Source: Rickettsiales bacterium
Lineage (GTDB): Bacteria; Pseudomonadota; Alphaproteobacteria; Rickettsiales; UBA998
Direction of reading: 5' to 3'
NCBI GenBank assembly: GCA_028279475.1
Contig: JANQNR010000004.1
Span: 124,001 to 188,000, forward strand
DNA: 64,000 nt
In this document: piece after piece, positions 31,440 through 34,137 of the stretch
Layout: every line of letters starts with the position of its first letter
How positions within the stretch are numbered: the stretch's first letter is position 1
Program-made: the position numbers and the translations under genes
The notes under the pieces: generated by a model
Database searches by the model: none
Seen by the model: the letters and a program-made list of their open reading frames with translations, nothing else
What the model was told of the DNA's origin: nothing

Positions 31440-32969
31440 TTACTCCACCCCTTCTACTGCATCGAAGCGGGGGAAGATAGGTTCTGGTGCAGGCAATACT
31501 GCACCTGGCCGTAACGCATGTGCCGGATCAATGGCAGACGCCATACGGGTATCCTCGGACACGCTGAGCTGGAATAGTAGCTTATCCGCTGAATCGGGGA
31601 TAAAGGGTTGCAGGCAGATCGCCAGGCACCGTATCCCTTCCAGCAAGGTATAGAGTACTGCTTCCATACGCTGTGGGTCGGTTTTCTTGAGTTTCCATGG
31701 CGCCTGCGCATCGATATATTCGTTCAGCCGCCGTCCGCCCTCGACAATGGCGTCTAACGCCTGATGAAAGGCCAGCGTTTTCAGCGCATCGCGAACCGCA
31801 TCAATCACCGGGTAAATGCCAGCCAGCACGTCTGCATCCTGCGGCGTAGAAGCAGCACTGGATGGCACCCTACCCTCGCAATTCTTCTGTACCATGGATA
31901 GGCTGCGCTGTGCCAGATTGCCGATCGTATTGGCCAATTCACTGTTGATTCGTTGCACCATGGCCAGCCGAGAGAAATTCCCGTCACTGCCAAACGGCAC
32001 CTCACGCAGCAGGAAATAGCGCGTCTGATCCAGCCCATACGTCTCAATCAATTGCTCCGGTTTGATGACATTACCCAATGATTTGGAAATTTTCTGTCCT
32101 TCATTGGTCCACCAGCCATGCGCAAAGACCTGCCGCGGCACCGGTAATCCGGCACTCATCAGGAAAGCCGGCCAATAGACTGCATGGAAGCGCAGAATAT
32201 CCTTCCCTACAACATGCAGCACATCGCCACCCGCCCAGAAAGTCTGGTAGTCCACTGCATTCGTATCTGGGTAGCCAACCGCCGTCATGTAATTGACCAG
32301 CGCATCCAGCCAGACATACATCACATGCGCTTCGTCACCCGGCACCGGCACGCCCCATTCAAACGAGGTGCGTGAGATGGATAAATCATGCAGACCGCCC
32401 TTCACAAAGCTGATGACCTCATTACGGCGTGATGCCGGAGCGATAAAGTCAGGATGGGATTCATAGAATGCCAGCAATCGCTCTTGCCAGGCGGAGAGCC
32501 GAAAGAAATAGCTTGGCTCCTCGACCCATTCCACTGGGGCACCGGTCGGTGCCTTACCGTCAATTAGCTCGTCTTCGGCGTAAAATGCTTCATCACGCAC
32601 CGAATACCAACCGGCATAGCTGCCAAGATAGATGTCGCCACTGGCTTCTAGCGCCTGCCACATTGCCTGCGCTGCCTGTTTGTGGCGTACTTCCGTGGTG
32701 CGGATAAAGTCATCATTAGAGAGATTCAGCTCCTCGGTCAGTTCCCTGAACGATTCCGAGACCATGTCGGTAAATTCCTGCGGGCTGACTCCCGCCGCCG
32801 CTGCCGATTTTTCTACCTTCTGCCCATGCTCGTCGGTACCGGTCAGGAAGCGCACCGCCTGTCCCTCCATGCGGGCAAACCGGGCGAGCACATCGCAGGC
32901 GATGGATGTATAAGCGTGGCCGATATGCGGCTTGTCATTGACGTAATAGATGGGTGTGGTGATGTACAT
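31440..32969 (-). CDS. metG: Methionyl-tRNA synthetase
   Basis: TTPIYYVNDKPHIGHAYTSIACD (HIGH), WWTNEGQKISKSLGNVI (KMSKS-like). Confidence 0.96.
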   Translation of the reverse strand: MYITTPIYYVNDKPHIGHAYTSIACDVLARFARMEGQAVRFLTGTDEHGQKVEKSAAAAGVSPQEFTDMVSESFRELTEELNLSNDDFIRTTEVRHKQAAQAMWQALEASGDIYLGSYAGWYSVRDEAFYAEDELIDGKAPTGAPVEWVEEPSYFFRLSAWQERLLAFYESHPDFIAPASRRNEVISFVKGGLHDLSISRTSFEWGVPVPGDEAHVMYVWLDALVNYMTAVGYPDTNAVDYQTFWAGGDVLHVVGKDILRFHAVYWPAFLMSAGLPVPRQVFAHGWWTNEGQKISKSLGNVIKPEQLIETYGLDQTRYFLLREVPFGSDGNFSRLAMVQRINSELANTIGNLAQRSLSMVQKNCEGRVPSSAASTPQDADVLAGIYPVIDAVRDALKTLAFHQALDAIVEGGRRLNEYIDAQAPWKLKKTDPQRMEAVLYTLLEGIRCLAICLQPFIPDSADKLLFQLSVSEDTRMASAIDPAHALRPGAVLPAPEPIFPRFDAVEGVE

Positions 32970-32972
32970 CGT

Positions 32973-33076
32973 TAGGGATTAGGGGCTAGGGTGTAGGGAT
33001 TAGGGTATAGGGTATAGAGATGAGAGTGTCATCCTCTAATCAATCCTCAGAACCTACATCCTAGCCCCTAATCCCT
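32973..33076. repeat. TAGGGNN heptad array plus inverted G-rich arm in the holB-metG junction
   Basis: Six TAGGGNN units with GGG tracts exactly 7 nt apart (32975..33012); 24-nt arm 32974..32997 pairs with 33053..33076. Confidence 0.85.
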
Positions 33077-34137
33077 GTCATCATCATCAACAGATTCGTG
33101 ATGACCTGTCGTTTATCCAGATAGAGGATACTTGCCGTCTCAACGGACTGGCGTTGTGTTTCCCATAGTTCCAGCCATGCCGGTAAGGGGCGTCGCTGCG
33201 CCAGTTTCTCCAGTACTGACCGGATCGTGGCATCGTCGGTTTGCATTTCTCCTGTTGCCTGGTACGCTGCCACCTGACGCACCAGCATATCGACCAGACG
33301 CTGCACATGCGCTAGCGTCATATGTTCGTCCTTGCCTATCGTTTCCGCCAGCTTTAGCAATGCATGCGTATCGTTTGGGGCAATGAGCGCGTCGAGCAAT
33401 TGCCACCAGTAGTCCAATGCTTTGGTTTCCTGCCAATGCAGCGCCATCCCCGGCGATCCATTGGTCAGGGCATAAAGTTGCGTGGCGCTGGTAGCATCCA
33501 TATGGCCATCCACGACTGCGTTAAAAGCATCATGCGAAAGGCCTGGCATGGTAATCTCACGGCAACGCGAACGGATGGTCGGAAGCAATTTACCAGGCAC
33601 ATGCGACACCAGAATGAACAGACTACGCGCCGGGGGTTCTTCCAGCCATTTCAACAGGGCATTGGCAGCGTTGTGGTTCATCGCCTCCGCCGGATCGACC
33701 ACGACAATCTTCCAGCCCATCTCACCCGCCGTCAGTGACATGAACTCGCCGATTGCACGCACGCGTTCGATGGGGATGTCCTTCTTGTAGGCTTTCTTCT
33801 TTTCATCGTAAGGTGGGCGAATCCAGAGAAAATCCGGGTGCGAGGATTGCAGCATACGCGTCAGCGCTGAAGCATCCGGATCGACTGATAAGGTCGAGGA
33901 TGGTGCAGCCGGTAATGTATCACCAAAGAGACCGCCATCTGCGCTTGCAGCCTCGGCGGGTGCCAGCAGACTTGCAGCCAATCGACAGGCCAGTGTGGCT
34001 TTGCCAATTCCTTCTGCTCCACTTAGCAGGTAAGCGGAGGGCAATCGTTCCCTGTCCAGTGCCCCGGCAAGTTGTGCTTCGACAGCTTCCATGCCATGCA
34101 GTGGTTTGGTAAACCAATCGGTGGCGGGCTGACTCAT
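33061..34137 (-). CDS. holB: DNA polymerase III subunit delta'
   Basis: LPSAYLLSGAEGIGKATLACRLA, VVDPAEAMNHNAANALLKWLEEPPARSLFILVSHVPGKLLPTIRSRC; between tmk and metG. Confidence 0.92.
   Translation of the reverse strand: MSQPATDWFTKPLHGMEAVEAQLAGALDRERLPSAYLLSGAEGIGKATLACRLAASLLAPAEAASADGGLFGDTLPAAPSSTLSVDPDASALTRMLQSSHPDFLWIRPPYDEKKKAYKKDIPIERVRAIGEFMSLTAGEMGWKIVVVDPAEAMNHNAANALLKWLEEPPARSLFILVSHVPGKLLPTIRSRCREITMPGLSHDAFNAVVDGHMDATSATQLYALTNGSPGMALHWQETKALDYWWQLLDALIAPNDTHALLKLAETIGKDEHMTLAHVQRLVDMLVRQVAAYQATGEMQTDDATIRSVLEKLAQRRPLPAWLELWETQRQSVETASILYLDKRQVITNLLMMMTGIRG

Follow-up and report, generated by a model that had tools for sequence, protein, structure and literature searches.

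The window, the 64,000-nucleotide stretch of Rickettsiales DNA that was analyzed, contains an element of about 105 bp that occupies the gap between holB and metG. The features of this locus are as follows.

31440..32969, minus strand: metG, the gene downstream of the hairpin
32973..33028, plus strand: left arm, six exact TAGGGNN heptads and then TAGAGAT and GAGAGTG
33029..33052, no strand: central loop between the arms, without an IVP gene
33053..33076, minus strand: right arm, the reverse complement of 32974-32997 at 23 of 24 bases (96%, 24 nt)
33061..34137, minus strand: holB (DNA polymerase III delta'), whose open reading frame ends in the right arm

The six exact heptads (32973-33014; in order, TAGGGAT, TAGGGGC, TAGGGTG, TAGGGAT, TAGGGTA, and TAGGGTA) stand in perfect 7-nt register, and the two degenerate heptads extend the array to 33028 with the register kept. 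The pattern TAGGGNNTAGGG has five tandem matches in the window, all inside the array, against an expectation of 0.02, and a count of five was reached in 0 of 100 shuffles. These data confirm, far beyond chance, the register and the degenerate copies described in a sequence-only reading of this DNA. That reading had also called the array telomere-like, which is unsupported; the array belongs to an interstitial hairpin, of which it forms one arm. Since the TAGGGNN array makes up only the left half of the element and the right half is its reverse complement, the whole is a hairpin, and the transcribed strand is predicted to fold at -52.3 kcal/mol (z = -6.3). An Rfam search with the hairpin gave only sub-threshold matches, to four microRNA families and one viral element, which were rejected because their scores lie far below the gathering scores.

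The holB stop codon (33061-33063) lies within the right arm, which supplies the final holB codons as well as the stop, and the metG start codon is located 3 bp past the outer end of the left arm. The distance from the end of the upstream frame to the conserved metG start motif is 100 nt in the window and 14 to 57 nt in four relatives (L147, L149, L152, and L153), none of which carries a hairpin of the window type at the holB-metG site. In another relative (L151, genome G003), the holB-metG gap upstream of metG carries a different insertion, with CCCCTCAAGGGGGG palindromes.

Related arrays and IVP genes in the same genome

Similar arrays were found elsewhere in the 1.98-Mb genome, in keeping with the sequence-only reading: TAGGGNNTAGGG has 28 matches, versus 5 for a reversed control. 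TAGGGNN loci with facing inverted arms are present on contigs C3 (two), C11 (two, one of them the window hairpin), and C14, and the remaining TAGGGNN loci are single arms. Of the two IVP (PF05635) genes in the genome, one belongs to a 455-bp element on C14 with TAGGGNN arms at both bounds, and this element is a full-length partner of the IVP-less window copy. The window element has several traits of a MITE, namely inverted ends, no coding sequence, several genomic copies, and ends common to a longer coding element of the genome, the C14 element with its TAGGGNN arms. The second IVP gene (C4:143277-143591; L088) has AGGTTTT-type inverted arms on both sides.

GGGAATC is the unit of a second hairpin family in this genome (G000), with the following members.

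C8:30272-30340 (L084): GGGAATC hairpin
C14:24929-24987 (L085): GGGAATC hairpin
C1:75838-75914 (L086): GGGAATC hairpin
C4:16240-16270 (L083): partial GGGAATC copy

The arms of this family differ by A/G, so that one strand has mismatches where the other has G.U pairs. In the window copy and in two other elements, the arms pair better within their own element than with the arms of other elements in the genome. This preference was not seen for the C11:506895 and C14 elements, and arm-by-arm homogenization is therefore not established in this genome.

Arms of IVP elements across bacteria

The IVP/S23 protein is a four-helix bundle of about 120 amino acids in which S, N, and E residues are invariant across the family. 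Across 36 same-order genomes, tandem 7- or 8-mers in inverted arms flanked the majority of IVP matches; the elements mostly span 400 to 480 bp, and the unit varies between elements. We also scanned 80 IVP loci, sampled with a peptide-pattern filter from species genomes that included Bacteroidota, Proteobacteria, Planctomycetes, and CPR records, with flanks taken from different elements and paired together as the control. The median arm-pairing score was 37, versus 16 for mispaired flanks; 45 of the 80 loci exceeded the 99th percentile of the control, and 35 fell within it. No IVP match was found in an annotated phage collection. A stretch of about 1 kb in genome G007 (C25:8780-9860; L130) has TAGGGNN arms at its bounds, the two in the same orientation, and contains another gene and a truncated IVP; it is also present in G004 (matching site C35).

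The scan and the same-order set together provided 69 elements with significant arm pairs. The best internal lag of the arms was 7 in 51 of these and 8 in 14, and shuffled arms gave about 7 elements per lag. On the left-arm strand C is scarce (11%) and AG is abundant, so that 59 of 69 left arms have at least three AG and 11 have at least three CT. Stop codons in all three frames occur in 65 of 138 arms, versus 27 under base shuffling; a 7-nt period alone yields this excess once the unit contains a stop, and we therefore make no claim from it. Selection at the RNA level through sense-strand G.U pairs was not supported, as the mismatches between arms lean the opposite way (170 antisense consistent versus 109 sense, pooled P = 3e-4; by element, 35 versus 20, P = 0.06). 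From these two tallies, neither RNA strand is demonstrated.

The survey bears on the G-quadruplex proposed in the sequence-only reading. The window array does meet the motif, with six G-tracts and 4-nt spacers, and related heptads form G-quadruplexes in vitro (PMC4692102). A regulatory G-quadruplex of the metG operon is nevertheless highly improbable, given that only 5 of the 69 elements have a G4-capable arm, that the pairing arm on the opposite side competes, and that relatives show no conservation at this site. The 5 of 69 likewise led us to reject the G-quadruplex as a common feature of the element class. Because 7- or 8-nt periodicity and inverted pairing are common to the class and G4 capacity is not, a G-quadruplex in the window array is at most incidental.

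IVP elements on cyanobacterial plasmids have the same architecture, with TAGGGAG and TAGGGTG among their arms. This bears out part of the link to cyanobacterial heptanucleotide repeats drawn in the sequence-only reading; the likeness to STRR sequences, which are tandem 7-nt units, is a resemblance in unit length only and serves as a lead. Plasmid IVP genes can sit within operons, between cas6 and cas4 or between ribonucleotide reductase genes, and such positions offer a simple candidate explanation of why IVP genes have been reported at cas loci (PMC3936711, PMC10910872). In Anabaena sp. 90 plasmid pANA02 (L274, 519-883), the left arm consists of tens of GGTGACA-type units, located between cas6 and the IVP gene, and the right arm is short; an arm of this size is consistent with slippage. 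A stretch of Nostoc sp. ATCC 53789 pNsp_c (L293, 412-673) has GGGAAC-type repeats and facing TTCCCTA units without an IVP gene, and it shares its TraM-gene site with the IVP element of Nostoc sp. C052 (L276).

In a Xanthomonadales family set centered on a Rhodanobacter genome, GGGAATC, GGGATTC, or GGGACTC serves as the unit in many cases, and other units are GAGTGA-like. Among elements with an arm score of at least 28, the lag is 7 in 21 of 23; mispaired flanks also score high in this family, because units are common to different elements. The single IVP gene of the Rhodanobacter genome lies in a GGGATTC element; short convergent hairpins of this unit number about 15 by manual count, with no matches for the control. 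These data show that hairpins lacking IVP share their heptad with an IVP element of their own genome. Full-length members of the class are elements of about 400 to 480 bp in which inverted arms of tandem 7-mers, sometimes 8-mers, flank one IVP/S23 gene.

Insertion and mobilization of IVP elements

Two IVP elements of genome G009 are missing from the matching sites of the congeneric genome G008, where the flanks are too diverged for the exact element ends to be resolved. Nostoc linckia NIES-25 has an empty site that corresponds to a plasmid element of Trichormus variabilis ATCC 29413; 864 of 873 flank bases are identical, and the insertion measures 428 bp. A direct repeat of 5 bp, GTAAT, bounds the insertion where the upstream gene has its stop codon; it is the one clean 5-bp target-site duplication. 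The Nostoc ATCC 53789 pNsp_a element has a TTCTA repeat with one base difference beside it, a probable target-site duplication. The filled and empty pairs from Calothrix, Nostoc C052, pNsp_c, and Nostoc edaphicum gave no clear target duplication. Among 74 elements, direct repeats 5 nt or longer close to the outer ends numbered 21, a count that includes three near-identical viral contigs, versus 11.7 expected, and this number was reached in 1 of 200 shuffles. The empty sites in relatives support, at the level of sequence comparison, the view that IVP elements insert.

An account without a mobile element would have a heptameric simple-sequence repeat grow by polymerase slippage and acquire its inverted partner by a local template switch. 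Bacterial heptameric repeats are abundant and variable in unit number (PMC4692102), and the Anabaena sp. 90 left arm has expanded to tens of units. Slippage fails to predict dispersed copies that share one unit, IVP genes between the arms in many phyla, and the presence or absence of whole elements with target duplication, and we consider this account quite unlikely.

The window hairpin might instead be a MITE of an ordinary insertion sequence, with a DDE transposase acting on the heptad ends and IVP as cargo or passenger in some copies. DDE transposition typically gives terminal inverted repeats and target duplications, and the terminal inverted repeats and 5-bp target duplication seen here are DDE-like. 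The arm sequence varies between elements, unlike the ends recognized by one transposase, and the gene between the arms belongs to the same IVP family even in distant phyla. An origin from an insertion sequence is therefore unlikely.

The IVP element carries no gene for a known recombinase. The structure predicted for IVP (pLDDT 95) matches those of XCC0516 from Xanthomonas campestris (TM up to 0.94) and of 2rld, another S23 protein, and also that of Avd of diversity-generating retroelements (4dwl; TM about 0.83), in line with the reported resemblance of PF05635 to Avd (PMC10053308). With this fold and its hairpin form, the element could be a REP/RAYT-type or diversity-generating-retroelement-like hairpin that a Y1 transposase or reverse transcriptase mobilizes in trans. 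The mobilizer genes sought were those for Y1_Tnp (PF01797) and RVT_1 (PF00078), and neither had a match in this genome or in the multi-IVP genomes G030, G026, and G003. Mobilization of either kind was accordingly rejected for this genome, and we regard this explanation as very improbable. In the same-order relative G019 (contig C1), matches to PF01797 (Y1 transposase) number 89 over 2.0 Mb.

The window array thus probably forms the arm at the left end of a MITE-like copy of a mobile IVP element, about 105 bp long and lacking IVP. No remnant of IVP is present in this copy, and its link to IVP elements is therefore drawn from common arm units and architecture. The arms can pair into a hairpin, in RNA or single-stranded DNA. 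For the mobilizing mechanism, we infer that IVP binds the arms and that cellular replication or repair enzymes then copy and insert the element. IVP-less copies would be mobilized by IVP provided in trans. In mRNA the hairpin may be tolerated, or RNase III may cut it, as with 23S rRNA intervening sequences. Slippage would alter the number of units, and hairpin-templated correction would keep an element's two arms similar as units diverge between elements. More tentatively, IVP/S23 proteins, which have no known enzymatic function, may define very widespread minimal mobile elements, each with one such protein between 7- or 8-nt repeat arms that diversify between elements. These would spread, with IVP-less copies in trans, while encoding neither a transposase nor a reverse transcriptase, and would explain much of the bacterial heptamer excess.

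Relation to known systems

We consider it likely that the window element falls within a wide group of IVP elements with heptad arms, a variant of IVS/S23 elements, and IVP elements are a candidate origin for several kinds of bacterial seven-base repeat that lack an explanation. If so, 23S intervening sequences with an S23 open reading frame, IVP in cas loci and in the rRNA insertions of CPR bacteria (PMC11270868), the heptamer excess, and the Xanthomonas GGGNATC repeats would all reflect one element class and its arms. The mobility of intervening sequences would also become directly testable, with the clean filled and empty pair as a start. These subjects are handled separately in PMC3936711, PMC10910872, PMC11270868, and the available part of PMC4692102, and a literature search that covered subscription papers and preprints thinly found no paper that joins S23 intervening sequences, IVP genes, and heptameric repeats. 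In marine Beggiatoaceae genomes, direct repeats of the heptamer TAACTGA are abundant between genes, with no role assigned (PMC4679880).

Like bacterial MITEs, the window element is short, multicopy, and gene free, with inverted ends common to a longer coding element; it differs in that the longer IVP element has no known transposase and in that the ends are heptad arrays that vary between elements. The Avd fold of IVP recalls diversity-generating retroelements, whereas the genome has no reverse transcriptase match. The Xanthomonas GGGNATC repeats, which include 70 to 75 convergent inverted pairs, were described as forming G-quadruplexes, with their role left open, in the available part of PMC4692102. 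These and the Nostoc GGGGA(C/T)T repeats resemble the elements described here in being intergenic tandem heptads, often in convergent inverted pairs, and the GGGAATC, GGGATTC, and GGGACTC arms of Xanthomonadales IVP elements and the GGGAATC hairpin family of this genome extend the likeness to GGGNATC. They differ in being presented, in that part of the source, as G4-forming repeats and with no link to IVP.

The 23S intervening sequence of Coxiella burnetii is 428 nt long and has inverted ends, an S23 open reading frame, RNase III cleavage, and strain-variable heptameric GACAGAT repeats (PMC4990558). The window copy differs from it in lying outside rRNA genes, in the holB-metG gap, and in having no S23/IVP open reading frame between its arms. 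It does have the inverted ends forming a stem that an IVS/S23 (IVP) element requires. The Coxiella sequence and the element class share terminal inverted repeats that serve as a stem, an S23/IVP open reading frame in a full-length form of about 430 nt, and tandem heptameric units, which in Coxiella (GACAGAT) lie near the open reading frame.
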